Below, piece by piece: positions 1 to 19,056 of a stretch of 19,685 nucleotides of DNA. The notes below the pieces were generated by a model. The model did not search any database. It saw only the letters and a program-made list of their open reading frames with translations, and was not told the DNA's origin. The translations under genes were made by a program, and so were the position numbers. This DNA is from Desulfobacterales bacterium (GTDB lineage: Bacteria > Desulfobacterota > Desulfobacteria > Desulfobacterales > JAFDCJ01). The first letter of the stretch is position 1; every line of letters begins with the position of its first letter. The stretch is from positions 1 to 19,685 of the forward strand of contig JAOZSC010000005.1 in NCBI GenBank assembly GCA_029939875.1. The letters run 5' to 3'.

Positions 1-1649
1 ACGTTGATCAGCGTCTCCTGGAAAAGGGGTTCGTGGGTCCGCGGAGTGCAGGCCGCCACCACCACCCGGTTCAGTTTCTGTTGTGCGATGACCTCCGTCA
101 TTTTGTCCTGGGTGTCCTGGGAACAGGTAAACAGGTTTTCTTCCACGTACACCACCCCGGGCAGGCTCCGGGCATACGCGGCGACTTCCGGCACCCGGAC
201 AATGCCGCCGATGTTGATGCCGCAGTTGCAGACGAACACCCCGATGCGAGGTTCTTCCCGGCTCACATTGCGTTCAACCGGTGTTTCAAGTGTTTCGGTC
301 CGGGTGTTGCGGGCGGCGGCCAGATTTTCAGTGGCCGCACACGCCGCGGCACTTGCCTCCATTACTGATTGGGGAATGTCCTTGGGGCCGGTGAACACAC
401 CGCAGGCGTAAATTCCCGGCACCGAGGTGCTGACCGGATGAAAACTGTCGCTGCGGGTAAAGTGATACTTATCCAGTTCAACCCCCAGGGTACTGGAAAG
501 CTCAATGGTCTCCCGACTGACTTCCAGTCCGGTGGACAACACTACCATATCAAAGGTTTCTTCCTGTGGGTGGCCGTCCTCGTCGAGGTAGCGCATCCGC
601 AGATCGTCGCTGTCGGGCATCGAATCAACGGTGTGGATTTTTGCGGGTATAAACCGTACGCCGCGTGCTCTGGCGTTTTCGTAATAGCGGTCGAAATCCT
701 TACCCTGGGTGCGGATATCCATGTAAAAAACCGCGCAATCCAGAGGGCTGTCGCTGTGATCTTTGGCCATGACCGCCTGTTTGACGGCGTACATACAGCA
801 CACCGAGGAACAGTATCCGTTATCGCAGCGATTGATATCCCGGGAGCCGACGCATTGCAGCCAGGCGATCTTGCGCGGCGGTTGGCCTTGCGGGTGTTTG
901 CCGCGCATGCTCGACGGGCGCAGCAGGTGGCCGGTATAGGGACCGGTGGCTGAAAGGATGCGCTCAAATTCCAGGGAGGTTACCACATCGGGCAGCCGGG
1001 CATAGGAGTAGGTGTCAAAACGGGAGGGGTCGAAGGCGGTAAATCCCGGTGCCAGGATGACTGAGCCGACTTGCAGGGAAATGGTTTTTTGGGTGTCATC
1101 AAAATTGATGGCCCCTGAAGGACATATTTTTTCACAGGCGCCGCATTTGTTCTTGGTCAGATAAATGCAGCTTTTCGGATCGATGGCGTATTTGAGCGGC
1201 ACGGCCTGGGAATAGGGGACGTAAATCGCCTTGCGTTTAACCAGTCGTTCATTATAATAGTCGTCAACTTTTTTAGGGCATTTTTCCGCGCACATCCCGC
1301 AGGCGATGCATCTGTCCACGTCCACGTAGCGCGGATGCTGCAAAACGTTGACTGTAAAATTGCCTTGCTCACCGCTAATGGACTGCACCTCGGCAAGGGT
1401 GAGCAGCTCGATGTTGATGTGCCGGCCGACCTCGACCAGTTTCGGGGAGATGATTCACATCGAACAGTCATTAGTGGGAAAGGTTTTGTCCAGCTGGGCC
1501 ATTGCGCCGCCGATGGCTGGCGATTTTTCCACCATGTAGACATAATAGCCGGAGTTGGCCAGGTCCAGGGCGGCCTGCATGCCGGCAATGCCGCCGCCGA
1601 CAACCATAACGGCCCCCTGTAGTACGATATCTGTGTGGGTAGTGCTCAT
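1..1649 (-). CDS. hdrA: HdrA-like heterodisulfide reductase subunit A, probable selenoprotein, 3' end outside the window
   Basis: Iron-sulfur flavoprotein that carries electrons between a donor and a HdrBC/MvhD-type partner; cytoplasmic. Translated through one in-frame TGA (codon 65) it stays open for 549 codons to the window edge. It shows an FAD Rossmann motif VVGGGIAG (16-23), TFPTNDCSM then the TGA then IISPKLVEV, a 4Fe-4S motif [12 protein letters not shown] (114-125), a second Cys set (161, 169, 172, 176), then the flavoprotein core ([41 protein letters not shown]). Near residue 468 a further domain begins ([13 protein letters not shown]), the one that opens the other HdrA of this window, so the full protein is probably over 1000 residues. 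The ATG at 1649 has AGAGGAAA about 8 nt upstream. It is last of the visible four-gene cluster, 40 bp after the receiver gene. The TGA replaces the Cys that homologues carry; selenocysteine is the best reading (HdrA is a known selenoprotein family). A point-mutation pseudogene is less likely because the frame is intact on both sides. Confidence 0.9.
1422..1439 (-). promoter_or_regulatory. SECIS-like stem-loop downstream of the UGA
   Basis: On the minus strand, 15 nt after the UGA, CUGGUCG and CGGCCGG can form 7 bp (two of them G-U) closed by the loop AGGU. The loop begins at nt 23 after the UGA and contains GGU. Bacterial SECIS elements lie just 3' of the UGA inside the coding sequence, with the apical loop roughly 16-37 nt away and G among the first loop bases, so distance and loop both fit. 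Folding was done by eye. Confidence 0.65.
1455..1457 (-). other. In-frame TGA, probable selenocysteine codon (Sec65 of HdrA)
   Basis: The sequence shows TGA directly after NDCSM and before IISPK in the hdrA frame. The second HdrA of the window has DCAACIGTPK here, with Cys195 aligned to the TGA. This is an FeS-binding position that alternates between Cys and Sec in the HdrA family. Reading through restores more than 480 codons of conserved HdrA sequence. Confidence 0.85.
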
Positions 1650-1689: not shown

Positions 1690-2070
1690 TCATTTCAACT
1701 TATTTTTTACCCGACAGGCCTTTTCAACGGCCTCGATCAGTTCATCATCGGTAAACGGTTTGGCCAGATAATTGTCGGCGCCCTGCTTGATGGCCTCAAC
1801 GGCATTGGAAATACTGGAATACCCGGTCATGACGATGATGCACAGGCCGGGTTTTTCCTCCAGGACAGTTTTGAGAATCTGCATGCCGTCCATATCGGGC
1901 AGTTTCATGTCCAGCAGCACGATGTCATAGACCTGCTGCCGGATGGCGCGTATGCCGTCGGTGCCGTTGGTGCTCTTTGCCACCGTGTGCCCCTTTTCCG
2001 ACAGCACCATTTCACAGGCATCGCAGATCACGCTTTCATCATCGATAACCAGTACTTCAAGCGGTTTCAT
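1690..2070 (-). CDS. Single-domain response regulator (CheY-like receiver)
   Basis: A 126-residue protein that is only a receiver domain. The acidic pair is D10-D11, the phospho-acceptor D54 lies in LLDMKLPD, the switch residue is T82 and the conserved lysine K104 lies in AKPF. No output domain follows, so it probably acts by protein contact or as a phosphate sink or relay. Its ATG overlaps the stop of the kinase gene (ATGA, 2067-2070), which implies translational coupling and makes that kinase its likely partner. The N-terminus (VIDDESVICDACEMVLS) and the LLDMKLPD block closely match the receiver of the sigma-54 regulator at 4394-5806, suggesting recent paralogy and shared or competing phosphorylation. 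HdrA follows 40 bp downstream. Confidence 0.92.
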   Translation of the reverse strand: MKPLEVLVIDDESVICDACEMVLSEKGHTVAKSTNGTDGIRAIRQQVYDIVLLDMKLPDMDGMQILKTVLEEKPGLCIIVMTGYSSISNAVEAIKQGADNYLAKPFTDDELIEAVEKACRVKNKLK

Positions 2071-3305
2071 GCATCCTCCTTTGCGTTGGCTTTTTCAGCC
2101 ATGGCCGGCAATTCAATCGTAAAACGCGAGCCTTTGCCCAGCTCGCTGAAGACATTGAAATCGCCCTGGTGATTTTTGATGATGCCGTAGCTGACTGCCA
2201 GTCCGAGCCCGGTTCCGTTGGAGCGGGTGGAGTAAAACGGCTCGAATATTTTTTTGACTTCAGCTGCGGGGATGCCACAGCCGTTGTCGGCGATTTCCAC
2301 TGTGATGCTGTTGTGCTCCGGATTTACCGTGCTTTTGATGGAAACCCGCCCGTGGTCTTCTACAGCATGCAGGGCATTGAGCAGCAGGTTGATAATCACC
2401 TGCTCGATCTGGTTTTCATCCAGAAACGTTTGGATCATGTCGGGGGCCAGGTGTTTTTCAAGGTTGACACGTTTCAGATAAAATTCATTTTGCACAACGC
2501 CCACAGCGGTGGTGACAATATCATTGATGTTGGCTGCAACCTTTTGGGGTTTTTTATCGCGGGCGAATTCGAGCAGCCCCTGAATGATGGTTTTGCACCG
2601 CTGGGTCTCGCGGATGATAATTTTTAAGCCCTTTTCAAAGGGGCTGGCTGGTTCGACTTTTTTGCTCATGTTGGAGGCGAACAGCAGGATGCCGCCCAGC
2701 GGATTGTTGATTTCGTGGGCAATGCCGGCGGCCATGCGCCCCAGTGACGACATTTTTTCCATCTGGGTGGCCAGGTGGGTGAAGTGTGCCTGCTGGTATT
2801 CTATCAACTGGACCCGTTCGATAATACAGGTACACTGCTCGGCCACTGTCAGGATAAATTCGAGCTCGTCATCTGAAAAATCCCGCTGTTTTTCAAGATA
2901 GACACGGATCAGTCCGATAAGTCTGTCCTCGATGGCCATCGGGACATCCAGCATCATTCGGATACCTTCATCCCAGGCCTGCTGGGGGTATTCCACCCGG
3001 GGGGCATTCCAGATGTCGGTGATAATAATCACCTTGTGCAGCTGGTTCGGATCGGGAAGCATCTTTTCGGTGGTCAGCGGGCCCTTGTGAAGATAGCGCT
3101 CCCCCATCCCGAAGCCCGCCCCAACTTCGAACTGGTTGGTTTCTTTATTGAGAATTCGCAGAAAAGCCCCCCGGGCGTTTAAAACCTCGGTGGTTTTTTG
3201 GACCACCACGTCCAGCACCTCTTTGACACTGGTGCTGGAGTGGACTGCCCGCAAAATATCTCTGAAGACCTGAAAATAGTTTTCAAATTTTGTTTCTGAT
3301 ATCAT
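2067..3305 (-). CDS. Soluble GAF-domain sensor histidine kinase
   Basis: A 412-residue kinase with no transmembrane segment, so it should sense a cytoplasmic signal. A GAF domain spans about residues 15-165, followed by a short helical linker (to 185). The dimerisation/phospho-acceptor box is GIAHEINNPLGG with H197. The N-box is QVIINLLLNALHAV (N310), G1 is DNGCGI (D340) and G2 is GTGLGLA (364-370), so all catalytic boxes are present. Its stop overlaps the start of the receiver gene by 4 nt; upstream lies the 229-residue response regulator, 58 bp away. The start ATG has only a weak GA-rich ribosome site. The kinase likely phosphorylates one or more of the neighbouring receivers, including possibly the sigma-54 activator. 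The GAF ligand cannot be read from the sequence. Confidence 0.92.
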   Translation of the reverse strand: MISETKFENYFQVFRDILRAVHSSTSVKEVLDVVVQKTTEVLNARGAFLRILNKETNQFEVGAGFGMGERYLHKGPLTTEKMLPDPNQLHKVIIITDIWNAPRVEYPQQAWDEGIRMMLDVPMAIEDRLIGLIRVYLEKQRDFSDDELEFILTVAEQCTCIIERVQLIEYQQAHFTHLATQMEKMSSLGRMAAGIAHEINNPLGGILLFASNMSKKVEPASPFEKGLKIIIRETQRCKTIIQGLLEFARDKKPQKVAANINDIVTTAVGVVQNEFYLKRVNLEKHLAPDMIQTFLDENQIEQVIINLLLNALHAVEDHGRVSIKSTVNPEHNSITVEIADNGCGIPAAEVKKIFEPFYSTRSNGTGLGLAVSYGIIKNHQGDFNVFSELGKGSRFTIELPAMAEKANAKEDA

Positions 3306-3363
3306 AGGCTGCTCGCAATCTTCAGGTGAAGATCAAAGTTTCATCATTGACGGTCCGTTGTGG

Positions 3364-4053
3364 TTACCAGGCTTCGCGCTCCAGGCGTTTGAAGATGAAC
3401 GTCAGTTGCCGGCGGGAAAGCCCAGCCACATTTTTGTTGATCCACTTCAGGTCCCCCGAGGCGATGGCCGCCTTGGCCTCATCCGACAGGGGGTAATCGC
3501 TCAGTGCAAAAGATCCATTTTCCATCAAATCAGACCAGAAATCCAGATCTTCGGTGGTGCGGCTCAACACCCGGTGCACCTCCTTTTTCTGGATCAGTTT
3601 TTCTTTTTCGGTTTCCGCCTTTTTGACAACGGTTTCCTTCGGCTTTTGCTTATGCCCGGCAAGGGCCTCGTTGATGGCCGTCTTGATTTGATCTTCGGTA
3701 AACGGCTTGGGCAGAAAATCATGGGCGCCCAGCTTCATGGCTTTTACAGCGGTCGCCGGGGTGCCGTACCCGGTAATGACGATGACCTCGGTTTCGGGCT
3801 TGCGGGCCTTGATTTGCCGGATGACTTCCATGCCGTCGATGTCCGGCAACCGCAGATCTGCCACCAGCAGGTCAAAGCGTTTTTGTTCAAATGCTTCCAG
3901 GGCCAGCCTGCCCGTGTCCGCCAGGTTTACCTCGTACCCCGCTTCGCTGAGAACCGTTTCCAGGCCTGCGGCCACACCGAGGTCATCTTCCATGACCAGG
4001 ATCTGGGGGCTCGGCCCGTAAGGGGGCGTTTTACGTTCCCGTAATGCTGTCAT
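3364..4053 (-). CDS. Response regulator with an unassigned C-terminal domain
   Basis: A 229-residue protein, first gene after the sigma-54 promoter at 4127-4141. The receiver covers about residues 16-135, with acidic E22-D23-D24, phospho-acceptor D66 (VADLRLPD), T94 and K116 (LPKPF). A Lys/Glu-rich, probably helical linker (about 137-165) leads to a C-terminal region of about 65 residues, which includes LSDEAKAAIASGDLKWI and ends RRQLTFIFKRLEREAW. I do not recognise this end as a standard DNA-binding output; the SDEAKAAIASGD stretch vaguely recalls small helical LigA-like or protein-interaction modules, but that is not an assignment. The ATG has a perfect AGGAGG 7 nt upstream. Confidence 0.9.
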   Translation of the reverse strand: MTALRERKTPPYGPSPQILVMEDDLGVAAGLETVLSEAGYEVNLADTGRLALEAFEQKRFDLLVADLRLPDIDGMEVIRQIKARKPETEVIVITGYGTPATAVKAMKLGAHDFLPKPFTEDQIKTAINEALAGHKQKPKETVVKKAETEKEKLIQKKEVHRVLSRTTEDLDFWSDLMENGSFALSDYPLSDEAKAAIASGDLKWINKNVAGLSRRQLTFIFKRLEREAW

Positions 4054-4126
4054 AGTGATGCCTCCTGTGGCAGCTGTACCGCTGTCCGGTTTGATAGGCG
4101 TTGTCTGTCATTTGATGGTAATAAAA

Positions 4127-4141
4127 GCAAAGGATGTGCCA
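4127..4141 (-). promoter_or_regulatory. Sigma-54 (RpoN) -24/-12 promoter of the hdrA regulatory operon
   Basis: On the minus strand the sequence reads TGGCAC-ATCCT-TTGCT. The invariant GG (4140-4139) and GC (4128-4127) are exactly 10 nt apart, a near-perfect match to the TGGCAC-N5-TTGCW consensus. Transcription would start near 4115 and give a leader of about 60 nt before the response regulator at 4053. An NtrC-family activator is encoded immediately upstream on the same strand. Confidence 0.88.
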
Positions 4142-4248
4142 GATAACTGGTAAAACAGGTATAAAGATAAATTCGGTTGTATTGTCTTTTGTATCAAATA
4201 GTTGCGTTCTGATGGGATCGTGTGAATTCGGCGCCTGGCAGGTGGTGA

Positions 4249-4268
4249 ACGTATATATCCTTATACGT
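4249..4268. promoter_or_regulatory. Palindrome, candidate enhancer (UAS) for the sigma-54 promoter at 4127-4141
   Basis: The sequence ACGTATA-TATCCT-TATACGT has perfect 7-bp inverted arms and a 6-nt spacer. Its centre is about 124 bp upstream of the -24/-12 element, the usual range for a bacterial enhancer-binding protein. The same GTATA-N6-TATAC pattern recurs at 4319-4334. Confidence 0.7.
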
Positions 4269-4318
4269 GCAGATCGCTCCGTTTTAATTTTTTGATGTGA
4301 TTTAAAGCCGTTATATTA

Positions 4319-4334
4319 GTATAAATGGTTATAC
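4319..4334. promoter_or_regulatory. Second palindrome, candidate enhancer (UAS)
   Basis: GTATA-AATGGT-TATAC has the same arms and the same 6-nt spacer as the site at 4249-4268, with centres 68 bp apart. It sits about 192 bp upstream of the -24/-12 element. A third half-site, TATACG, occurs at 4350-4355, about two helical turns further upstream. Together these look like a cooperative activator-binding array, probably for the product of the gene at 4394-5806. Confidence 0.65.
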
Positions 4335-4393
4335 GCAGATATGGGGCCTTATACGGCTTCACCGGGGGGACACCATCGACGTTTAAGACGCCG

Positions 4394-5806
4394 TCAGTTT
4401 TGCTGTTGGACGGAATTTGCTGCCAGACCGTGTCTTTTCATGAGGGCCGAAAAATTGGAGCGCTGCATGCCTACCTGCCGGGCCGCCCGGGTGATGTTGC
4501 CGTCGGCAGCGGCGAGAGCCTTTTGCAGAAACGCTTTTTCGATTTGACCGAACTGGTTTTCCAGCCAATCCCGTTTGATTGCTTTGAGCTCTTTCATGGT
4601 TTCCGGAACGGTCGGCCGAGGCAGTTGCGGTTTTACTTCCCAAAAATCCGACAGGCTCTGGTAGTCCAGCACCCGCTGGTCAGAGAGGATGACCAGACGC
4701 TCGACGACATTTTTGAGCTGCCGCACGTTTCCGGGCCAGTTGTGGTTTACCAGTGTTTCGAGGGCCTCGTCGGTAAAACCGTCGACGCGTTTTGCAGTCT
4801 GGCGGCAATATAATTTTAAGAAATGGTAAAGCAGCCGGGGGATATCGTCTTTGCGGTCCCGCAGCGGGGGAATAAAGACGGGAAACGCGTTGAGGCGATA
4901 ATAAAGATCTTCCCGAAAACCGCCTTCGTCCACCATTAATTTCAGATCCCGGTTGGTGGCGGCAATAATGCGCACGTCGGCTGTTTTTACCATGCTGGCA
5001 CCGACCGGTTTGAATTCCCGGGATTCCATGACCCGCAGCAGTTTGGACTGAATATCCATTTCCAGGTTGGCCACTTCGTCCAGAAAAAGGGAACCGTGGT
5101 CGGCGATTTCAAAAATACCGGCTTTATTTTTAACCGCTCCGGTAAACGCTCCTTTGACATGCCCGAACAGCTCGCTTTCCACCAATGATGAGGAAAAAGT
5201 ACTGCAATCCATGGCAATAAACTGGCGCGAAGCCCGTTTACTGTGCGCATGGATGGCCCGGGCGAACAGTTCCTTACCGGTGCCGCTTTCCCCGCAAAGC
5301 AGCACCGTGCTGCCGGTGGGGGCAACTTTTTGGATTTGATCGAAAATTTTGATGATGCCGGCGTTTTCACCGATAATGTTGCCAAAGTCATAGCGTTCGC
5401 TGAGCTGGGTGCGCAGAGCCAGATTCTCCTCTTTCAGACGCTTGTTCTCCATGGCCCTTTGCACGGCAATGATCAGTTCATCATCGACAAATGGCTTGGT
5501 CAGGTAGTCGAAAGCACCCAGTTTCATGGTCTGCACGGCGTTTTCGACACTGGAATAGCCGGTGATGATAATCACGTAAACCTCGGGGCGCTCTTTTTTA
5601 ATGGACCGCAGAATTTCCAGCCCGCCAAGATCCGGCAGCTTCATGTCCAGCAGGGTCAGGTCGTATTGGCCGCCCATCAGCATTTCCAGCCCCCGGCGGC
5701 CGCTCAGGCAGGTATCCACCGCAAAACCATAATCTGAAAGAACCAGACGGCAGGCCTCACAGATGACCGTTTCATCATCGACAACCAGGATTTTGCCTGT
5801 TTCCAT
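4394..5806 (-). CDS. NtrC-family sigma-54-dependent response regulator
   Basis: A 470-residue enhancer-binding protein with the complete order receiver, AAA+ and Fis-type HTH. The receiver has D10-D11, phospho-acceptor D54, T82 and K104. The AAA+ domain (about 141-375) has Walker A GESGTGKE (172-179), the sigma-54 contact loop GAFTGA (219-224), Walker B GSLFLDE and the arginine-rich FREDLYYRLN segment. The HTH near 440-462 reads NITRAARQVGMQRSNFSALMKRHGL. It should bind the palindromes at 4249-4268 and 4319-4334 and open the promoter at 4127-4141. The receiver is very like the stand-alone receiver at 1690-2070. Transcription probably starts from a housekeeping-type promoter at 5852-5880; only a weak ribosome site precedes the ATG. 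Confidence 0.95.
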   Translation of the reverse strand: METGKILVVDDETVICEACRLVLSDYGFAVDTCLSGRRGLEMLMGGQYDLTLLDMKLPDLGGLEILRSIKKERPEVYVIIITGYSSVENAVQTMKLGAFDYLTKPFVDDELIIAVQRAMENKRLKEENLALRTQLSERYDFGNIIGENAGIIKIFDQIQKVAPTGSTVLLCGESGTGKELFARAIHAHSKRASRQFIAMDCSTFSSSLVESELFGHVKGAFTGAVKNKAGIFEIADHGSLFLDEVANLEMDIQSKLLRVMESREFKPVGASMVKTADVRIIAATNRDLKLMVDEGGFREDLYYRLNAFPVFIPPLRDRKDDIPRLLYHFLKLYCRQTAKRVDGFTDEALETLVNHNWPGNVRQLKNVVERLVILSDQRVLDYQSLSDFWEVKPQLPRPTVPETMKELKAIKRDWLENQFGQIEKAFLQKALAAADGNITRAARQVGMQRSNFSALMKRHGLAANSVQQQN

Positions 5807-6017: not shown

Positions 6018-6034
6018 AGGCGGAGGTGCGGGGT

Positions 6035-7201
6035 GTGAAAAAACGTCTGATTCTGATTTTATTTGCGGTTTTGCTGCTGGCGGTGGGATCTTTCGTGTAT
6101 GTGGGGCAGTACCGGCAGCGCAACGCCGCTCTGTATTATTCGGGGACTATCGAGGCCACCCGGGCCGATCTGGCGTTCCAGGTCGCAGGGGCCGTCAAGG
6201 TGGTACTGGTCGATGAAGGGCAGACCGTCTCCAGGGGTCAGGTGCTGGCCATGCTCAGGCCGGAAGAATTCGAGGCCCGGCGGGACCAGGCCAGGGCCAA
6301 TTGGAACCAGGCGACCGAAAAAATGGAACAGCTGCAGACCGTTTTGGAACTGCAGCGCAAAATACTTCCCGCCGAGGTTGAAAAGGTCCGGGCCGCCGTG
6401 CGGGCACTTGAGTCTCAGCTGGCGCAGCTAAAGGCCGGCTATCGGGCCCGAGAAGTGGAACGGGCGCGGCTGGCCTTTCAAGAGACCAAGGTCACCATGG
6501 AAGAAGCCCGCAAGGACAAGCTGCGTTTCGATACCCTTTACCGGAAAAAAATCATCGCCGAAAAGGACCGGGATGCGGCCGATCTCAAATATACCACGGC
6601 TTTGAAAGAATATGAACGGGCCAGACAGGCTTACGAACTGATGAAAGAAGGCTATCGTCAAGAAGACATCGCAACGGCCGAAGCCCGGCTGGCCGAAGGC
6701 CGCGCCGTCCTTGAACAGGCACAGGCCAATCTGGCTAAAATAGAGACCACCCGCCGGGAGGTGAAAGGCGCCCAGGCCCGGATCCAGGTAGCTCGCGCCG
6801 CATTCGATCTGGCAGAAATTAAACTGTCCTATACCCGGCTGAAGGCTCCTTTTGAGGGCATCCTGGTCAGCCGCAACGTGGAGCCCGGGGAAGTGGTCTC
6901 ACCGGGCCGTGAGGTTCTGTCCGTGGCCGACCTGTCCCGGGTGGATCTCAAGGTTTTCGTGGACGAGACTGAAATCGGCAGGGTCAAACCCGGCCAGCCG
7001 GTGGATGTTAAAATCGATACTTTTCCCAATAAGGTTTACACCGGAACCGTTGCCTTTATTTCACCGGAAGGTGAATTTACCCCCAAAATTATCCAGACCC
7101 GCAAGGAGCGGGTCAAACTGGTTTATATGGTTAAAATCTCCATTGACAACCCCCGTTTAGAACTCAAATCCGGGATGCCCGCTGATGCCTGGTTCAAGTA
7201 G
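6035..7201 (+). CDS. HlyD/YbhG-type membrane-fusion protein of an ABC-2 exporter
   Basis: A 388-residue periplasmic adaptor anchored by one N-terminal helix (about 4-22, LILILFAVLLLAVGSFVYV). It has a split lipoyl/barrel-sandwich domain (YSGTIEATRADLAFQVAGAV near 33-52; LKAPFEGILVSRNVEPGEVVSPG near 270-292). These halves bracket a long Ala/Glu/Gln/Arg-rich coiled-coil hairpin (about 80-255). A beta-barrel end follows (VDVKIDTFPNKVYTGTVAFI). The GTG at 6035 is chosen because GGAGG sits 8 nt upstream; an in-frame GTG at 6026 overlaps that ribosome site. It opens the adaptor-ATPase-ATPase-permease-permease operon, the order of E. coli ybhGFSR. There is no lipobox cysteine. The substrate is unknown. 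Confidence 0.9.
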   Translation: MKKRLILILFAVLLLAVGSFVYVGQYRQRNAALYYSGTIEATRADLAFQVAGAVKVVLVDEGQTVSRGQVLAMLRPEEFEARRDQARANWNQATEKMEQLQTVLELQRKILPAEVEKVRAAVRALESQLAQLKAGYRAREVERARLAFQETKVTMEEARKDKLRFDTLYRKKIIAEKDRDAADLKYTTALKEYERARQAYELMKEGYRQEDIATAEARLAEGRAVLEQAQANLAKIETTRREVKGAQARIQVARAAFDLAEIKLSYTRLKAPFEGILVSRNVEPGEVVSPGREVLSVADLSRVDLKVFVDETEIGRVKPGQPVDVKIDTFPNKVYTGTVAFISPEGEFTPKIIQTRKERVKLVYMVKISIDNPRLELKSGMPADAWFK

Positions 7202-7253
7202 CCATCCGGGTCCGCCGTCCGAACCTGGAGCGCACCCGGTGGCGGGTTCGCCC

Positions 7254-7997
7254 ATGATTCAACTGGAGGCCGTGTCGAAAAGTTTTGGTGAGGTGGCCGC
7301 GGTTAGCGATGTCACCCTTAATATCCGCCGGGGGGATACGGTCGGTCTGGTGGGTTCCGACGGTGCCGGCAAAACGACACTGCTGCGCCTGGTGGCCGGC
7401 ATGATCCTGCCCGGCGAGGGCCGCATTTACGTGGGAGGCCTGGATGCCGTCGGGCAGCGCTCCCGGGTCAAGGAATTGATCGGCTATATGCCCCAGCGCT
7501 TCGGCCTGTACCCGGATCTGAGCGTGGGTGAAAACCTGGATTTTTTCCTGGACATTTTCAGTATTTACGGAAAGGAACGCACCCGGCGGCGACAGCGTTA
7601 CCTGGGATTTTCAAATCTGCTGCCTTTTGTGGATCGCCGGGCCGGGGACCTTTCCGGTGGGATGAAGCAAAAGCTCGGCCTGGCCTGTGTGCTGGTGCAC
7701 CAGCCCGATGTGCTGATCTTAGATGAGCCCACTAATGGAGTGGATCCGGTGTCGCGGCAGGAATTCTGGAACATCCTGGCGGAAATGCGAAAAAACGGCA
7801 TGACTATTTTTGTATCCACGGCTTACCTGGATGAGGGTGAAAAATGTGACCGCCTGATGCTCATGCACAATGCCCGCATTCTGACCACCGACACACCTGC
7901 CCGGATACAGGCCGGTTTTGACAATCTGGAAGAGGCAATGATCCACCGCATTCTGGCTGCTGACACTACATTGGCCGAGGACCGCTTTGGAACCTAA
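7254..7997 (+). CDS. ABC transporter ATP-binding protein 1 (N-terminal half of a split YbhF)
   Basis: A 247-residue nucleotide-binding domain for the ABC-2 exporter. Walker A is GSDGAGKTT (34-42), with Asp where GPNGAGK is usual, as I recall for the first domain of YbhF. The Q-loop is Q81 (YMPQRFGLYPDLS), the signature is canonical LSGGMKQK (133-140) and Walker B is VLILDEP (D157-E158). The switch histidine is missing: the motif reads VSTAYLDE with Ala190. It should pair with the next gene's product. The start is uncertain: ATG 7254 begins right at the conserved MIQLEAVSKSFG; in-frame GTG 7239 or ATG 7185 (overlapping the adaptor gene) would add residues with no ABC similarity. Confidence 0.9.
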   Translation: MIQLEAVSKSFGEVAAVSDVTLNIRRGDTVGLVGSDGAGKTTLLRLVAGMILPGEGRIYVGGLDAVGQRSRVKELIGYMPQRFGLYPDLSVGENLDFFLDIFSIYGKERTRRRQRYLGFSNLLPFVDRRAGDLSGGMKQKLGLACVLVHQPDVLILDEPTNGVDPVSRQEFWNILAEMRKNGMTIFVSTAYLDEGEKCDRLMLMHNARILTTDTPARIQAGFDNLEEAMIHRILAADTTLAEDRFGT

Positions 7998-8727
7998 CGC
8001 CGTCAGGGTGAAGAAGTTGAGCAAAACCTTCGGCGATTTTATCGCCGTCGACCACATCTCCTTTGCTGTCAAGCGCGGTGAGATTTTTGGTTTTCTGGGC
8101 CCCAACGGCGCCGGCAAGTCCACCACCATTCGCATGCTTTGCGGGATCATCGCCCCCAGCAGCGGCTCCGGCCAGGTGGCCGGGCTGGATATTTTTACCC
8201 ACCCTGAACAGATCAAACAGAGCATCGGTTACATGTCCCAAAAGTTTTCGCTTTACCTGGACATGACCCCGCTGGAAAATATTCGCTTCTACCTGGGCAT
8301 ATATAATGTTGCTGCCCGTCTGTGGCCGGAACGCACTCGCTGGGTGCTGGAAACCACCCGTTTAAACCCGGTTCGCGACCGACTGACCCGGGAGTTGCCG
8401 CCGGGCTGGCGCCAGCGGCTGGCCCTGGGCTGTGCGTTGCTGCACCGGCCGAAAATTTTATTTCTCGATGAGCCCACCTCCGGGGTGGATCCCATCACGC
8501 GCCGGCACTTCTGGGAGTTTATCCAACAGCTGGCCGGCCAGGGGGTCACGGTCTTTGTCACCACACATTACATGGAAGAAGCCCGGCACTGCAACCGGGT
8601 GATTTTGATCAATGCCGGCAAAATTGTGGCCGGCGGATCCCCGGCTGAAATCATTGCCGGCCTGTTTCCGGACCGGCCCACAGCGGATCTCAATGATGCC
8701 TTTATCAAACTGGTGGGGGCGCCATGA
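7987..8727 (+). CDS. ABC transporter ATP-binding protein 2 (C-terminal half of a split YbhF)
   Basis: A 246-residue nucleotide-binding domain. Walker A is GPNGAGKST (38-46), the Q-loop is Q85, Walker B is ILFLDEP (D161-E162) and the switch histidine H194 is present (VTTHYMEE). The signature is degenerate: LPPGWRQRLAL (137-147) replaces LSGGQ, as in the second half of YbhF. Together with the preceding ATPase, one composite ATP site (this Walker A/B/His plus the other LSGG) is canonical and the other is defective. Translation starts at TTG 7987, with GAGGA 5 nt upstream, overlapping the previous gene by 11 nt; its stop overlaps the next gene by ATGA. A GTG at 8008 is an alternative start. Confidence 0.9.
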   Translation: MEPNAVRVKKLSKTFGDFIAVDHISFAVKRGEIFGFLGPNGAGKSTTIRMLCGIIAPSSGSGQVAGLDIFTHPEQIKQSIGYMSQKFSLYLDMTPLENIRFYLGIYNVAARLWPERTRWVLETTRLNPVRDRLTRELPPGWRQRLALGCALLHRPKILFLDEPTSGVDPITRRHFWEFIQQLAGQGVTVFVTTHYMEEARHCNRVILINAGKIVAGGSPAEIIAGLFPDRPTADLNDAFIKLVGAP

Positions 8728-9857
8728 ACCTGCGAAAAGTACAGGCAGTGGCCAGGAAAGAGTATTACCATCTCATCCGGGATTTTCGTAGTCTTTACCT
8801 GGCGTTTTTTATCCCCTTGCTGCTGATCCTGCTTTTTGGCTATGCCCTCAGCCTGGATGTGGAAAATGTCACCACCGTGGTCGTTGATCAGGACCAGACG
8901 ACCCAAAGTCGTGACTTTATCCACAAGCTGGACGCATCGGCCTATTTTAACGTCATCGCTCACCTGGCCGACACGGCTGCCGTTATCCGGTATCTGGACC
9001 ACAACCGGGCGCTGCTGGGAATCGTTATTCCGCCGGACTGGACCGAAAACCTTCAGGCGGATCGGCCCTCCCCACTGCAGGTGATCATCGACGGCAGTGA
9101 CCCCAATTTTGCCGGCATCACCCGGGGCTACATCACGGCGTTTATCGCGCGTGCCAATCGCCGGCAGCTGCTGGAATTTCTCAACCGGCAGGGCAAAGAG
9201 GAAATCCGGCCCCCGGTGCAGGGCCGCATCCGCGTGTGGTTTAATGAAGACCTGGAAAGCCGCAATTTCATCGTGCCGGGCATTGTGGCGCTGATCCTGA
9301 TGATTGTCGGTGCGCTGCTGACGTCGCTGGTGGTTGCCCGGGAATACGAAAACGGCACCATGGAAACCATCCGGTCCCTGCCGCTGGGGGCGGCTGAATT
9401 TCTGGCCGGCAAGGCGCTGCCGTATTTTTTCATCGGCATGGCCGATGTGCTGGTGGCCATTTTAATGGGACAGCTGCTGTTCGGGGTGGTGATGAAATCC
9501 AGCTTCTGGCTGATGGTCAGCGCCTCATCCATTTACCTGGGGGTTGCCTTGGGAATTGGGTTGCTCATTTCCACGTTGACCAAATCCCAGCTGGTGGCCA
9601 ATCAGCTGGCTATCCTGGTGACTTATCTGCCGTCGCTGCTGCTTTCCAATTTCGTTTTTCCGGTGGAAAATATGCCGCCGGTTCTCAAGCTGGTCACGCG
9701 CATCGTGCCGGCCACCTATTATATCGACATTCTCAACGGGTTGTACCTGCGCAACCTGGATTTCTGGCACCTGTGGCCCAGCTATCTCATTTTGGCGGCC
9801 ATGCTTTTCTTTCTGGGCACTGCGAACTTGCTGGTGTTGAAAAGGGAGGGCCTGTGA
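8724..9857 (+). CDS. ABC-2 type permease (YbhS/YbhR-like), first copy
   Basis: A 377-residue inner-membrane permease with the ABC-2 export architecture. The N-terminal cytoplasmic segment (RKEYYHLIRDFRSL) leads to a transmembrane helix (about 25-43, FFIPLLLILLFGYALSL). A large periplasmic domain follows (about 45-185). A five-helix C-terminal block then starts with FIVPGIVALILMIVGALLTSLV and includes the EYENGTMETIRSLPL coupling segment. It starts at ATG 8724, overlapping the upstream ATPase by 4 nt, and is followed after 1 nt by the second permease, with which it should form the heterodimeric pore. Drugs, bile-type compounds or lipids are typical substrates of this class; none can be assigned here. 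Confidence 0.92.
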   Translation: MNLRKVQAVARKEYYHLIRDFRSLYLAFFIPLLLILLFGYALSLDVENVTTVVVDQDQTTQSRDFIHKLDASAYFNVIAHLADTAAVIRYLDHNRALLGIVIPPDWTENLQADRPSPLQVIIDGSDPNFAGITRGYITAFIARANRRQLLEFLNRQGKEEIRPPVQGRIRVWFNEDLESRNFIVPGIVALILMIVGALLTSLVVAREYENGTMETIRSLPLGAAEFLAGKALPYFFIGMADVLVAILMGQLLFGVVMKSSFWLMVSASSIYLGVALGIGLLISTLTKSQLVANQLAILVTYLPSLLLSNFVFPVENMPPVLKLVTRIVPATYYIDILNGLYLRNLDFWHLWPSYLILAAMLFFLGTANLLVLKREGL

Positions 9858-9858
9858 T

Positions 9859-10980
9859 ATGAGCTGGCTCAGGGTGCGGGAGCTGGTCCGCAAGGAATTT
9901 ATCCAGCTGTTTCGGGACAAGAAAAACCGGCCGCTGCTGCTCATCGCGCCGCTGATCCAGCTAATCGTCTTCGGCTACGTGGTCACCACCGATGTGCGTG
10001 ACATCCGGGTGGGGGTGCTGGATCAATCCCGCACGGCGGAAAGTCGCCGGCTGATCGATGCCATCGCCGGCAACAAGACCTTTCGCATTACCCATGTGGT
10101 GGATCATCCTCGGGATCTTGACCGCCTGCTGATGAAACGTCAAATCAACATGGCCGTGAAAATTCCACCGGATTTCAGCAACCGCATCCGAAAGGGCCAG
10201 ACCGCCGAGGTTCAGATCCTGGTGGACGGGTCCATGAGCAATATGGCTTCGGTGAGAATTGCGTATACCTCCACCGTGCTGGACAACTTCAACAGCCGGC
10301 TGATCCGGGAGCTGTATGCCCGCAGAATCGACTATGGGCAGATAGACGGCCGCATCCGAACCTGGTACAATCCCAACCTGGACAGCCAGTATTTCTATGT
10401 GCCCGCCATCGTGGCATTTCTGGTGATGCTGCTCTCCCTGCTGTTTACCTCCATGGCCATTGTCCGGGAAAAAGAGGCGGGCACCATGGAGCAGTTGATC
10501 GTCACGCCGCTCAAAGCCTTTGAACTGATTCTGGGCAAGACCATCCCCTTTATCATCATTGCCCAGGCCCAGATGGTGATGGTGATTGTTTTCGCAATTT
10601 TGTGGTTTAAAATTCCCATGGCGGGCAGCGCCTGGCTGCTGATGGGGGCCACCGGCGTTTTTTTGCTCAGCACCCTGGGAATCGGCCTTTTTATTTCCAC
10701 GGTTTCGCGCACCCAGCAGCAGGCCATGATGACCAACTTTTTTTTCATCATGCCGTTTTTCATGCTCAGCGGCTTTGTTTTTCCCATTGCCAACATGCCC
10801 ACCGTGGTACAGTGGTTTACCTACTTAAATCCCCTGCGCTATTTTCTGATCATCATCCGGGGTATTTTTCTCAAAAATGCGGGTTTTGAGATCTTGTGGC
10901 CCCAGTTTGCCGCCCTGGCGATCCTGGGCGCGATTGTCTTCACAGGGGCCGTCAACCGTTTCCGGAAACGGCTGGACTAA
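9859..10980 (+). CDS. ABC-2 type permease (YbhS/YbhR-like), second copy
   Basis: A 373-residue paralogue of the preceding permease with the same plan: cytoplasmic RKEFIQLFRDKKNR, first helix (about 28-45, LLLIAPLIQLIVFGYVVTT), periplasmic domain, then FYVPAIVAFLVMLLSLLFTSMAIV and four more helices, with EKEAGTMEQLIVTPL as coupling segment. GGGAGGG, about 10 nt before its ATG, lies inside the end of the upstream gene. It is the last gene of the exporter operon; no convincing intrinsic terminator follows, only a weak GTATT/AATAC hairpin near 10987-11000. Confidence 0.92.
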   Translation: MSWLRVRELVRKEFIQLFRDKKNRPLLLIAPLIQLIVFGYVVTTDVRDIRVGVLDQSRTAESRRLIDAIAGNKTFRITHVVDHPRDLDRLLMKRQINMAVKIPPDFSNRIRKGQTAEVQILVDGSMSNMASVRIAYTSTVLDNFNSRLIRELYARRIDYGQIDGRIRTWYNPNLDSQYFYVPAIVAFLVMLLSLLFTSMAIVREKEAGTMEQLIVTPLKAFELILGKTIPFIIIAQAQMVMVIVFAILWFKIPMAGSAWLLMGATGVFLLSTLGIGLFISTVSRTQQQAMMTNFFFIMPFFMLSGFVFPIANMPTVVQWFTYLNPLRYFLIIIRGIFLKNAGFEILWPQFAALAILGAIVFTGAVNRFRKRLD

Positions 10981-11357: not shown

Positions 11358-11436
11358 GGAAGTTTTTATGGTAACTTGGGCTTTGCGGATAAGCGCCTTA
11401 TTAAATTATCACCATCATAGCATCAGGGAACGATTT

Positions 11437-12984: not shown

Positions 12985-13006
12985 AGCAATTGAACCTCAA
13001 AAACCA

Positions 13007-14746: not shown

Positions 14747-14886
14747 AGCCGGATTTTGGATTGTCTCCGCCTTTCTGTCGCCAAAGGCAACACCACCTGC
14801 TGTCTTTCCCTGATGATTCAATACCTTTGGCGGCTACCTGATCACTCCCGCTCCAACCGATCCACATTGTTTCCGAAGAGCAGCGG

Positions 14887-14931
14887 TGTTGCACGAATAT
14901 AATGGTGCAACAAATGTTGCATATTTGTTGC
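14887..14931. promoter_or_regulatory. Distal TGTTGCA site cluster, candidate enhancer
   Basis: TGTTGCA(C) at 14887-14894 is inverted at 14905-14912 as GTGCAACA (8-bp arms, 10-nt spacer). Further direct copies follow: TGTTGCA at 14915-14921 and TGTTGC at 14926-14931. It shares the heptamer with the palindrome at 14997-15019 and lies about 200 bp upstream of the -24/-12 element. Confidence 0.6.
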
Positions 14932-14996
14932 GAAGCACGAGGCAATGTATCTGTATCAGCTGTAAAACAGGAAATTCACGGTTTGATTTTTTCTAA

Positions 14997-15019
14997 GATG
15001 TTGCAACCGCTGCAACATC
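14997..15019. promoter_or_regulatory. Proximal palindrome, candidate enhancer (UAS)
   Basis: GATGTTGCA and TGCAACATC are perfect 9-bp inverted arms separated by ACCGC. The centre is about 102 bp upstream of the -24/-12 element. A TTGCA-N5-TGCAA core has the general layout of NtrC-type enhancer sites. The product of the adjacent gene (13007-14746) is the obvious candidate to bind it. Confidence 0.75.
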
Positions 15020-15079
15020 AAAGGATGTCATTCGGGCCCAGGCCAGGCTGTAAGTATTAAAATTTATTGTAAAAACAGA

Positions 15080-15097
15080 TAGATAAAATATTATCTA
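15080..15097. promoter_or_regulatory. Promoter-proximal dyad, possible operator
   Basis: TAGATAA-AATA-TTATCTA has perfect 7-bp arms and ends 6 nt before the -24 GG. Its position abutting the sigma-54 holoenzyme site suits a repressor or IHF-like bender better than an enhancer protein. As an AT-rich palindrome it could also be chance. Confidence 0.35.
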
Positions 15098-15103
15098 CCA
15101 ATC

Positions 15104-15117
15104 GGCACGGTTTATGC
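15104..15117 (+). promoter_or_regulatory. Sigma-54 (RpoN) -24/-12 promoter of the right-hand hdrA operon
   Basis: CGGCACG-GTTT-ATGCT has GG at 15104-15105 and GC at 15116-15117 with exactly 10 nt between, and GGCACG matches the -24 consensus. The predicted start near 15129 gives a leader of about 67 nt to the TTG at 15196, close to the roughly 60-nt leader of the left-hand operon. Confidence 0.82.
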
Positions 15118-15195
15118 TTTTTGTATCAGTTGGTTTTTATAGGATACCGGGAATATTTTTAATGATCCATTCAAATTGCTGAACAGGGGGCTTGC

Positions 15196-15645: not shown

Positions 15646-18600
15646 ATGTCGACGAAAATCGGATTTTACATTTGCCATTGCGGTATCAATATTGCCTACC
15701 GGGTGCGTGTGGCCGAGGTGGCGGATTTTGCCCGCAAGCTGCCCAATGTGGTAGTGGCCCGGGATTACAAGTTTATGTGTTCGGACCCGGGCCAGGAGAT
15801 GATCGAAACGGACATCAAACAATACGGTCTGAACCGGGTGGTGGTGGCATCCTGCTCCCCGCGGCTGCACGAGAAGACCTTTCAGAGCGCTTGCCAGCGG
15901 GCCGGGCTCAATGCCTATTTTTTCCAGATGGCTTCCGTACGGGAGCAGGTTTCCTGGGTGACTGAAAACGAAGACGACGCCACGCGCAAGGCCAAAACCC
16001 TGGCAGCGGCGGCCATCAGCCGCGTCAATTACCACAGCGAGCTGGAAACCCGGGAAGTGCCGGTTCACCCGGACATGATGGTGGTCGGTGGCGGCATCGC
16101 AGGTATGCAGGCCGCCCTGGATCTCGGCAATTCCGGTCACAAGGTATACCTGGTGGAAAAGCAGACCACTGTCGGCGGCCACATGCTGCAATTTGACAAA
16201 ACTTTTCCCACCCTTGACTGTGCGGCCTGCATCGGAACCCCGAAAATGGTTGAAGTGGCCCAGAACCCCAACATCGAGCTGCTTTCCTACAGTGAGGTGC
16301 AAGAGGTTTCCGGCTACATCGGCAATTATACCGTCAAGATCCATCGCAAACCGCGTTACATAAAGGAGGGGGTGTGCACCGGCTGCGGGGAGTGCACCAA
16401 AGTTTGCCCGGTTTCCGTACCCAGTGAATGGGATGAGGGCCTGGCGGCACGGACGGCGATCTACCGTTCTTTTCCCCAGGCGGTACCCATCACATTTTGT
16501 ATCGACAAAAAAGACCGGGCGCCGTGCACGGTCACCTGCCCGGCGGGCATCAACGTGCAGGGCTACGTTCAGCTTATCGGCCAGGGGAAATACCGGCAGG
16601 CCGTTGAGCTGATTATGGAACGGCTGCCGCTGCCGGGAGTGCTGGGCCGGGTTTGCCCGCACCCTTGTGAGATGCAGTGCCGGCGTGGGGAAGTCGACAC
16701 ACCGGTGGCCATCCGGGATTTGAAGCGTTTTGTCGCCGACCAGATCAATCCGGATGATCTACCGCTGCCGCAAATCGAAGATCGCGCTGAAAAGGTGGCG
16801 GTGGTAGGCTCCGGTCCGGCCGGGCTGACAGTGGCTTACTATCTGCGGCGCAAGGGATTCCAGGTAACGCTTTTTGAATCCCTGCCGGTGCTTGGAGGCA
16901 TGCTGAGGGTCGGCATCCCGGATTACCGGTTACCACCGGAAATATTAGACCGGGAGATTGATTACATTGTTCGTTTAGGGGTGGAAGTACGCACCGGGGT
17001 GCGGCTGGGCACCGACGTCAGCCTGGAGGATCTTAAGAACCAGGGCTACGGCGCAGTTTTTCTCGGCACAGGCGCTCATGGGTCCATGAAGCTCAATATT
17101 GCCGGCGAATCGCAGACTGACGGGGTTATCGATGCGGTGCAATTTCTAAGACGGGTCAACCTGGGGGATCGCAATGTTCCCGGCCAGCGGGTGGCCATTG
17201 TCGGCGGGGGCAATGTTGCCATCGATGCCGCCCGGGCGGCGTTGCGCCTCGGAGCACAAAATGTCAGCATTGTGTATCGGCGCAGCGAAAGAGAAATGCC
17301 GGCCTATGCTGAAGAGATCCATGACGCCCGTGAGGAAGGCACTGAGTTTTTCTTTCTCACCGCTCCGGTGCAGATCATGACCGAACAAGGACGGGTGCAG
17401 GGGCTTGAATGTATTCGCACCGAGCTGGGGGAGCCGGATGCCAGCGGTCGGCGGCGTCCGGTACCGGTCAAGGGATCCGAGTTTGTGATTGACTGCGATG
17501 CGGTCATTCCGGCCATCGGGCAGAAAGCGGATACCGCCTGGGCGCAGCAGGCGCCCGAGTTGAAGTGGTCGCGCCGGGCGACGCTAATCGTTGATGCCGG
17601 GACCATGCAGTCGTCGATCCCGTATGTATTTGCCGGAGGAGACATGGTTACCGGTCCGGCTTCGGTGATCGAGGCCGTGGCCGCCGGTCACCGGGCGGTT
17701 GAGGCGATCTGTGCTTATCTTGACGGTGAAAATCTCGATATCCTGTCCGGCGGGGCGCAGGATCAGGATGCGCCTGGAAGGGACTGGCGAGAGGTCCCCG
17801 CGGAATTGGCCGCCGGGGCCCGGGTTCAATCCGGCCGCCTCGAACCTTCGGCCAGGGCACAGACCTTTGACGAGGTTGATCGTGGTTTTGATGAGGCCGC
17901 CGCTCATCGGGAGGTCGATCGTTGTCTGAACTGCGGCGTTTGCTGTGAATGCATGCAGTGCGTACAGGTCTGCGAGGCCAAGGCCATTGACCATGACATG
18001 CAGCCCCAGGACCTCGAAGTTAAAGTCGGCAGCATCGTACTGGCCACCGGCTACGATATTTTTGATGCCGCACGTATGAAACAATACGGTTACGGAAAAT
18101 ATCCCAACGTGTTCTCCAGTCTGGAGTTTGAGCGTCTGTCCAACGCCACCGGGCCCACCGGGGGCAGGATTATGATCCGCGACGAAAACGGCGAATTCAC
18201 CCGGGTTCCACGCAGCGTGGCACTGCTGCACTGTGTCGGCAGCCGGGACGTGAACTATCACGAGTACTGCTCCCGGGTATGCTGCATGTACGCTTTGAAG
18301 TACAGCCACCTGATCAAGGAAAAAATTGGTCACGACACCGAGGTCTACGATTTTTATATCGATCAGCGCTGTTTCGGCAAAGGCTACGAGGAGTTTTACC
18401 GCCGCTGCCAGGAGGAAGGCTCCACCTTTATCCGGGGCAAGGTGGCCGAGATCAGTGATCGGGCTGAAAAACCGGAAGAAGAGGGCAAACTGGTGGCCAT
18501 TGCCGAAGACACCCTCCTGGGTTCCAGATTGCGCGTGCCGGTAGACATGGTGGTTTTATGCGTGGCCATTGAAGCCCGTGCGGATGCCGGCGAGGTGGGC

Positions 18601-19056
18601 CGCATTTTCGGGATCAACCTGGGGGCCGACGGGTTCTTCCTGGAAGAACACCCCAAGCTCGGACCACTGAACACGGCCACCGACGGGGTTTTTATCGCCG
18701 GCGCCTGTCAATCGCCCAAAGACATCCCCGACACCGTCGCCCAGGCCTCCGGGGCGGCCGCCAAAGCGCTTTCCCTGGCTACGCGGGGAAAAGTGATCAT
18801 TCCATCGACGATTTCCTGGATCGATCCGGATATCTGCATCGGGTGCCAGACCTGCATCGGTCTGTGCCCGTACAGCGCCATTGAGTTTGATGCCCGCCGG
18901 CAGGTGTCGGTGGTCAACGAGGCTCTGTGCAAAGGTTGCGGCAGCTGTGCGGCCTGCTGCCCCAGCGGTGCGGCCCAGGTGCGTCATTTTAACAAGAAAC
19001 AGCTTTTCGCGGAGTTTGAAGGCATTATGGATGCGCTGGATGCTGTGGGGATGTAA
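15646..19056 (+). CDS. hdrA: HdrA with inserted GltD/NfnB-like NAD(P)H:flavin oxidoreductase module
   Basis: An 1136-residue cytoplasmic iron-sulfur flavoprotein. An N-terminal domain (1-135; FYICHCGINI) precedes the HdrA FAD motif (VVGGGIAG, 146-153). The cluster motif DCAACI follows (191-196; Cys195 sits where the other HdrA has UGA), then 4Fe-4S CTGCGECTKVCP (244-255). From about 285 to 690 lies a GltD-type module: Cys294/298 and RVCPHPCEMQC for its own clusters, FAD site VVGSGPAGL (386-394), NAD(P)H site VAIVGGGNVAIDAAR (516-530) and VFAGGDMVTGPASVIEA. HdrA then resumes with a Cys cluster (760-776), VGSIVLATGY and CVGSRD, and ends with two 4Fe-4S motifs (1064-1074, 1095-1105). The fusion should link NAD(P)H to Hdr electron transfer, possibly with bifurcation (inference). 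AAGGAA precedes the ATG; mvhD lies downstream. Confidence 0.93.
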   Translation: MSTKIGFYICHCGINIAYRVRVAEVADFARKLPNVVVARDYKFMCSDPGQEMIETDIKQYGLNRVVVASCSPRLHEKTFQSACQRAGLNAYFFQMASVREQVSWVTENEDDATRKAKTLAAAAISRVNYHSELETREVPVHPDMMVVGGGIAGMQAALDLGNSGHKVYLVEKQTTVGGHMLQFDKTFPTLDCAACIGTPKMVEVAQNPNIELLSYSEVQEVSGYIGNYTVKIHRKPRYIKEGVCTGCGECTKVCPVSVPSEWDEGLAARTAIYRSFPQAVPITFCIDKKDRAPCTVTCPAGINVQGYVQLIGQGKYRQAVELIMERLPLPGVLGRVCPHPCEMQCRRGEVDTPVAIRDLKRFVADQINPDDLPLPQIEDRAEKVAVVGSGPAGLTVAYYLRRKGFQVTLFESLPVLGGMLRVGIPDYRLPPEILDREIDYIVRLGVEVRTGVRLGTDVSLEDLKNQGYGAVFLGTGAHGSMKLNIAGESQTDGVIDAVQFLRRVNLGDRNVPGQRVAIVGGGNVAIDAARAALRLGAQNVSIVYRRSEREMPAYAEEIHDAREEGTEFFFLTAPVQIMTEQGRVQGLECIRTELGEPDASGRRRPVPVKGSEFVIDCDAVIPAIGQKADTAWAQQAPELKWSRRATLIVDAGTMQSSIPYVFAGGDMVTGPASVIEAVAAGHRAVEAICAYLDGENLDILSGGAQDQDAPGRDWREVPAELAAGARVQSGRLEPSARAQTFDEVDRGFDEAAAHREVDRCLNCGVCCECMQCVQVCEAKAIDHDMQPQDLEVKVGSIVLATGYDIFDAARMKQYGYGKYPNVFSSLEFERLSNATGPTGGRIMIRDENGEFTRVPRSVALLHCVGSRDVNYHEYCSRVCCMYALKYSHLIKEKIGHDTEVYDFYIDQRCFGKGYEEFYRRCQEEGSTFIRGKVAEISDRAEKPEEEGKLVAIAEDTLLGSRLRVPVDMVVLCVAIEARADAGEVGRIFGINLGADGFFLEEHPKLGPLNTATDGVFIAGACQSPKDIPDTVAQASGAAAKALSLATRGKVIIPSTISWIDPDICIGCQTCIGLCPYSAIEFDARRQVSVVNEALCKGCGSCAACCPSGAAQVRHFNKKQLFAEFEGIMDALDAVGM

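Follow-up and report, generated by a model that had tools for sequence, protein, structure and literature searches.

The in-frame TGA that seems to cut short an hdrA gene in Desulfobacterales DNA is best explained as a selenocysteine codon, and the gene as one intact HdrA selenoprotein in which UGA is read as Sec, a reading to which a probability of about 95% is assigned on comparative sequence evidence. The gene lies at one end of the analysed stretch of 19,685 nucleotides (hereafter the window). An initial annotation of the same DNA had proposed a selenoprotein here, and the proposal is now supported by the recurrence of the TGA at the same codon, by the cysteine codons that stand in its place in other HdrA genes, and by the conservation of a SECIS hairpin.

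The interrupted hdrA gene

Translated with TGA as U, the HdrA frame on the minus strand of the window comprises 549 codons (1649..3) and is still open at the contig end. It holds a single TGA (1457..1455) and no other stop, with 64 codons before the TGA and 484 after it. The initial annotation had described a 64-codon ORF with its TGA after NDCSM and a frame open for more than 480 codons beyond; the ORF was found at 1649..1455(-) and the 484 codons counted extend to the contig end, with the correction that the window is the entire contig (C127) and that hdrA (3..1649) is cut by its end. The source assembly is a 3.04 Mb draft of 515 contigs with an estimated completeness of 79.7%. On reading the sequence, a GAGG resembling a Shine-Dalgarno site was seen 5' of the ATG at 1649.

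The frame had been rightly recognized as HdrA: sequence homology to 5odc_A, the HdrA chain of a structurally solved heterodisulfide reductase complex, runs across the FAD and inserted ferredoxin domains (439.2 bits), and the match to the NCBIfam HdrA2 model (NF040770) scores 557.5 bits, under the full-length cut-off of 1100, as would be anticipated for a gene truncated by the contig end. The TGA (1457..1455) occupies the place of the second Cys in DCxxC. In an alignment to HdrA homologues, a check that the initial annotation had suggested, the codon falls on residue 197 of 5odc_A within an ungapped stretch (14→146), and its earlier placement at the cluster-ligand Cys, Cys195 of the window's other HdrA, agrees with the alignment (codon 16228). 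That second gene, on the plus strand, was named HdrL-like by reading, as an HdrA with an inserted glutamate-synthase-like part. The features are collected in Table 1.

Table 1. Coordinates of the HdrA features in the window and the basis of each assignment.
Feature	Position	Strand	Description	Basis
hdrA, 5' part	3..1649	-	549 codons with TGA as Sec, open at contig end; corresponds to the first half of the double HdrA fused in relatives	Translation, 5odc_A, NF040770, relatives' chains
N-terminal 64 codons	1458..1649	-	Contain FAD-binding GGGIAGM; the ORF of a simple gene caller	Translation; motif by reading the sequence
In-frame TGA, predicted Sec	1455..1457	-	Residue 65; U is the second position of DCxxU and is matched to residue 197 of 5odc_A	Translation and alignment
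SECIS hairpin core	1422..1439	-	CUGGUCGAGGUCGGCCGG; 7-bp stem, loop AGGU; 16-33 nt 3' of UGA	Exact recurrence, synonymous variation, fold
ORF from GTG at residue 88	3..1388	-	Start point of database relatives	ORF list; P0002, P0005
Ferredoxin-like domain, inserted	1080..1315	-	Cysteines at about residues 114-124 and 161-176; approximate boundaries	Translation and 5odc_A alignment
HdrA N-terminal-type cluster domain	3..257	-	Residues 465-549 (...CTPRTHEP), after the Sec half; aligns to 5odc_A residues 2-82	5odc_A alignment and chain comparison
Second HdrA, HdrL-like	15646..19056	+	Cys195 is TGC at 16228; without SECIS core; comparison gene	ORF list, site readout

Recurrence of TGA at the HdrA site

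Two further HdrA genes of the source genome, both on contig C238 (locus L034), carry TGA at the identical codon (sites 4375(+) and 1108(-)), and Cys HdrA paralogues coexist with these TGA copies in the same genome. By reading, both C238 genes run on into a glutamate-synthase-like part and are HdrL-like; the frames next to site 4375, also named by reading, are MetF-like upstream and MetV-like and MetF-like downstream. A single in-frame TGA interrupts an HdrA match in each of the eight genus genomes searched, among them the source genome; the nearest matches to the window HdrA have 90% and 82% identity. The position of the TGA was read out in seven of the eight and then in the eighth (G007, L046) with a wider pattern, the first having missed sites of the form KTY or KVY; the wider pattern read nine loci (L046, L050, L051, L052, L054, L055, L061, L066 and L080, among which L052 and L061 had been read earlier too), and TGA stood at the site in 9/9. 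In another locus (L068, end of contig C312 in G002), a TGA falls within the N-terminal cluster domain, and it was rejected as a Sec site: homologues carry glycine there, the codon lies at a contig edge, and it is probably a sequencing error.

In named genomes, 93 HdrA sites in 75 loci were occupied by TGA (48), TGT (27) or TGC (18), these loci coming from the best 80 of at least 569 confirmed stretches found with a query that favours double HdrA, so that the frequencies are no census. In the remaining 5 of the 80 loci the site pattern was not matched, and they were left out. No codon besides TGA, TGT and TGC was seen at the 93 sites of this best-80 set, even though the pattern also admitted S, A, G and T. 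On a tree from a quick search of 88 of 94 rows (short rows were dropped), the Sec/Cys label of the same best-80 loci changes 12 times, 9 of these changes being forced by well-supported branches, vs a mean of 29.5 for shuffled labels. This pattern suggests that Sec is old among the HdrA of Desulfobacterota and has repeatedly been exchanged with Cys.

Some TGA genes come from more distant lineages. In the pair L177 and L186, an HdrA of a Peptococcaceae (Bacillota) with the TGA and the exact SECIS core is joined on the tree, on a long branch, to a deltaproteobacterial HdrA, which may reflect transfer or a mis-binned contig. A Freyarchaeota HdrA (L178, 8510(+)) likewise carries TGA at the corresponding codon, but no bacterial-type hairpin lies 3' of it. 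A bacterial SECIS is not expected in an archaeal gene, the archaeal SECIS being located elsewhere in the mRNA, and the lack of a bacterial hairpin in L178 is consistent with archaeal use of Sec.

Conservation of the SECIS hairpin

A bacterial SECIS is, by consensus, a hairpin just 3' of the UGA with GG in its loop. In the window gene, codons +6 to +11 after the TGA, which encode LVEVGR, are CTG GTC GAG GTC GGC CGG. Within the best 80 of at least 569 loci, CTGGTCGAGGTCGGCCGG occurs exactly at 28 of the 29 TGA sites that code for LVEVGR and at 0/4 Cys sites with identical residues, a comparison that draws on 29 of the 48 TGA sites and 4 of the 45 Cys sites. Similarly, the SECIS core was present in 16/16 distinct TGA rows within the genus vs 0/5 Cys rows, and it was exact in eight of the nine loci read with the wider pattern, the ninth (L066) having a different hairpin sequence. 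In 30 TGA genes from the best-80 set of at least 569 loci, the window's gene included, mean synonymous heterozygosity was 0.02 over codons +6 to +11 vs 0.56 over 43 other conserved degenerate codons (minimum 0.24); codons +5 and +12 on either side, counted in neither set, had 0.19 and 0.51.

In TGA genes with other residues at these positions (LVECGR, LVEAGR, LMDVGR or MLDVGR), different stems are formed whose loop is displaced by five bases in the 3' direction, and GGUC is in each loop; loop and structure are therefore kept while sequence and register vary. Examples of differing stem and register, which follow residues +6 to +11 and keep GGU(C) in the loop, are L115, L133, L151 and L135. By a score of our own devising, a hairpin of at least 14 was found at 46/48 TGA sites vs 6/45 Cys sites in the best 80 of at least 569 loci, the two TGA sites below 14 being L162 and the archaeal L178; a hairpin of some kind was present at 18 of the 45 Cys sites of that set. 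SECIS-like hairpins were observed in the Cys-HdrA genes L140, L144, L147 and L153, and these are possibly remnants of a SECIS after a change from Sec to Cys.

Folding of the single sequence is less distinctive. The 24-nt piece has a fold energy of -10.2 kcal/mol, and a 57-nt fold retains five of the seven stem pairs. The fold is unexceptional against dinucleotide shuffles (z = -0.54), and 3.3% of synonymous recodings fold equally well. An Rfam search of the whole window at the gathering score returned no SECIS match, and near the site there was one sub-threshold snoRNA match. The case for the predicted SECIS is thus one of comparison between genes and not of single-sequence folding. Judged from this conservation, SelB carrying Sec-tRNA would bind the hairpin 16-33 nt 3' of the UGA, and the ribosome would insert selenocysteine at residue 65.

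Selenocysteine machinery

The initial annotation had pointed to the sel genes as a check, and half of the set was recovered in the source genome itself. There, contig C250 carries selA (619 bits) and contig C70 the wing domain of SelB (71 bits). Searches of this 79.7% complete draft recovered neither selC nor selD, and both occur in genomes of the same genus. For selC, 150 of 453 first-look tRNA-Sec candidates were scored; four tRNA-Sec matches in the source genome lay below the cut-off and were rejected as tRNA-Trp, tRNA-Leu, tRNA-Arg and tRNA-Leu, and neither the contigs of selA and selB nor the window yielded a tRNA-Sec with ARAGORN. For selD, two weak matches (28.9 and 20.7 bits, with a cut-off of 125 bits) were obtained in the draft. 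Across the eight genus genomes, selA was present in 8/8 and the SelB wing in 6/8; selD exceeded the cut-off in six, each copy having a single in-frame TGA and one copy being partial, and tRNA-Sec exceeded it in five, all called SeC(tca) by ARAGORN. In the closest sister genome (G004, 78% complete), neither selC nor selD was over the cut-off. We provisionally read the missing selC and selD as draft incompleteness, because loss of both should not leave selA, selB, the TGA codons and an intact SECIS behind.

Alternative explanations for the TGA

The most mundane alternative is that the TGA arose from TGC or TGT in an ordinary Cys-HdrA gene, as a sequencing or assembly error or as a real nonsense mutation. 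The assembly behind the window is indeed a draft in 515 contigs, and the TGA of L068 at its contig edge resembles just such an error; but an error or a private mutation would not be repeated identically in paralogues and other species, nor be followed by a conserved SECIS that comparable Cys genes lack, and this explanation is barely conceivable. Alternatively, the TGA could be a true stop that separates a 64-aa peptide from a 933-aa HdrA started on its own. A GTG start is available at residue 88, and the 933-aa form is what databases contain. Such a split, however, would strip the enzyme of its FAD-binding N terminus and of DCxxC, which belong to one chain in the solved HdrA and in Cys homologues; 45 of the 93 sites in the best 80 of at least 569 loci are Cys and unbroken, and the residues between the TGA and the GTG are conserved, which leaves two separate genes very unlikely.

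It may also be asked whether UGA is translated as an amino acid other than selenocysteine, by reassignment or near-cognate reading, given that the organism is known here from a draft assembly in which selC and selD were not found. Against this, TGA is a working stop codon that ends 7 of the 14 main frames of the window, the alternatives at the HdrA site are always Cys codons (best 80 of at least 569 loci), a SECIS lies 3' of the TGA, and the source genome has selA and selB, so that only a slim chance is left for another amino acid. Reading of UGA as selenocysteine remains the preferred explanation.

Domain architecture and predicted role of residue 65

The window HdrA opens with the FAD domain, and an N-terminal-type cluster domain follows at residues 465-549. 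The same order is found in other Sec chains: of 38 seen to their end (best 80 of at least 569 loci plus L074 and L034, the latter two coming from genus genomes and not from named-genome loci), 36 have a cluster domain downstream and none has one upstream, and the second half is without CxxC in all 32 Sec chains of that set that could be parsed. Cys chains built in the same way likewise carry the cluster domain downstream in 32/41 cases (best 80 of at least 569 loci). Among all 79 chains followed to their end, the second half was unparsed in 13, of which 9 are Cys and 4 Sec. The order is therefore a property of the double HdrA and not of Sec. Outside this set of chains, one locus of the genus (L066; G003:C381) is a Sec-HdrA with an N-terminal cluster domain of its own upstream and an mvhD-like C-terminal part, by reading an HdrA-mvhD fusion; its TGA is at the same site and its hairpin is GATGTC-GGTC-GACATC.

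According to the accessible text of PMC9012536, the N-terminal cluster of an HdrA is ligated in the solved complex by Cys197 from its partner HdrA, electron flow to ferredoxin goes via this cluster in the proposed HdrA heterodimers, and fused HdrA shows complementary loss of Cys197 and the N-terminal domain. This description of Cys197, together with the 5odc_A alignment, supports the naming of the position as a cluster-ligand Cys in the initial annotation. In relatives, the fused double HdrA consists of a first half with the FAD domain and Sec65 and without an N-terminal cluster domain, and a second half with the cluster domain and without CxxC. Sec65 stands at the Cys197 position, and by analogy with the ligation across HdrA subunits it would most likely contribute one ligand to the other half's [4Fe-4S] cluster, on the ferredoxin branch. 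The fuller proposal, that Sec65 is a cross-domain ligand and forms a natural selenolate-ligated [4Fe-4S] cluster on the ferredoxin branch of flavin-based electron bifurcation, tuned by exchange of Sec and Cys, is argued from analogy and is given even odds. The shared domain order of the Cys chains and the upstream cluster domain of L066 argue against the ligand role being specific to Sec. Within the open-access literature, to which coverage extended, no HdrA with Sec197 was found, and HdrA with Cys197 appeared in one paper, PMC9012536, whose accessible text mentions selenocysteine in connection with FdhA only. Nothing usable on selenolate as an iron-sulfur cluster ligand was returned in the literature listing.

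Operon context

HdrA is the flavoprotein subunit that bifurcates electrons by way of FAD, together with HdrBC/MvhD or further partner proteins. The window ends inside hdrA, and the operon partners were seen in the sister genome G004 (L074, contig C345), whose HdrA is 90% identical. There, hdrA (TGA) is followed by an mvhD-like gene (TGA), an Fe-S subunit gene and an fdhA-like gene (TGA), all named by reading. The mvhD-like gene runs from about 7419 onward with TGA at 7608 (VGGUHIGDCHY), and the fdhA-like frame occupies about 8.7-10.8 kb with its TGA in CARLUHS, so that this cluster probably holds three selenoprotein genes with in-frame TGA at redox sites. Because the operon contains mvhD-like, Fe-S subunit and fdhA-like genes, a formate-linked complex is suggested, which may bifurcate or confurcate electrons among formate, ferredoxin and a second carrier.

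Between the two HdrA genes of the window, several two-component regulators and histidine kinases were recognized by reading at 1690-5806(-) and 11368-15624(+), and response-regulator genes lie upstream of hdrA in G004 too. At 6026-10980(+), HlyD-like, two ABC ATPase and two ABC-2 permease-like genes stand in a row and, as named by reading, make up an export system flanked by the two blocks of regulators.

Database annotation and significance

The initial annotation had expected standard gene calling to lose the gene and report a fragment. The true N terminus is indeed missed, but the gene is not lost, since databases carry it in a truncated 933-aa form. This picture comes from three proteins among 120 relatives listed: P0002 (99% identity, 84% of query) and P0005 both have 933 aa and start with MQSISG, which is residue 88 of the window HdrA, and P0004 has Cys at the Sec site. 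The 933-aa forms are without the FAD motif and the Sec site. The same truncation point was raised for Methanocaldococcus HdrA in 2025, according to the accessible text of PMC12054007.

The reading of UGA as Sec restores the N terminus, FAD motif and redox site included, which the truncated database versions of this energy-conservation enzyme lack. The affected HdrA site recurs across Desulfobacterota, and the near-invariant SECIS could serve to locate such genes and mend their annotation. Should Sec indeed be a cluster ligand, the effect of selenium on an Fe-S cluster of bifurcation would become directly testable through the many Sec/Cys pairs found in HdrA.

Comparison with known HdrA selenoproteins

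The window gene is a well-supported further example of a published family. The initial annotation had named HdrA as a selenoprotein of methanogens and of some sulfate-reducing Desulfobacterota, and Sec-HdrA in Deltaproteobacteria has been in print since 2006, when HdrA was listed as a bacterial selenoprotein family of 16 members (PMC1794560, accessible text). A review of 2026 gives the motif of Sec-HdrA as CxxU (PMC13188914, accessible text), and heterodisulfide reductase is among the selenoproteins of a marine deltaproteobacterial genome (PMC8318568, accessible text). As in the source genome, several copies per genome are known in some species, with seven in Syntrophobacter fumaroxidans and four in Syntrophus aciditrophicus, besides one in Desulfotalea psychrophila (PMC1794560). 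The accessible account of those genes stresses hdrA-frhD-frhG-frhA operons (PMC1794560), whereas the nearest relative here has, by reading, hdrA with mvhD-like, Fe-S subunit and fdhA-like genes.

Desulfobacterium autotrophicum HRM2 has Sec in HdrA1, HdrA2, HdrL1 and HdrL3 and in four mvhD, and its Sec HdrA/HdrL genes lie beside mvhD and, in some loci, fdhB-fdhA (PMC2702500, accessible text). Compared with its Sec-HdrL, the TGA copies on C238 of the source genome are HdrL-like by reading, whereas the window's own HdrL-like gene uses Cys. In Desulfococcus multivorans, hdrA (dmul_C02770/80) likewise has a UGA and a SECIS and was placed under two locus tags (PMC5109826, accessible text); that species is a cultured strain, whereas the present gene comes from a draft genome and is cut by a contig end. 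The methanogen HdrA (5ODC, with a Sec form in Methanocaldococcus jannaschii) shares the FAD domain and the inserted ferredoxin domain and has Cys at residue 197 in 5odc_A; it is a single HdrA of about 650 aa that acts as a dimer, whereas the relatives of the window gene have a fused double HdrA.
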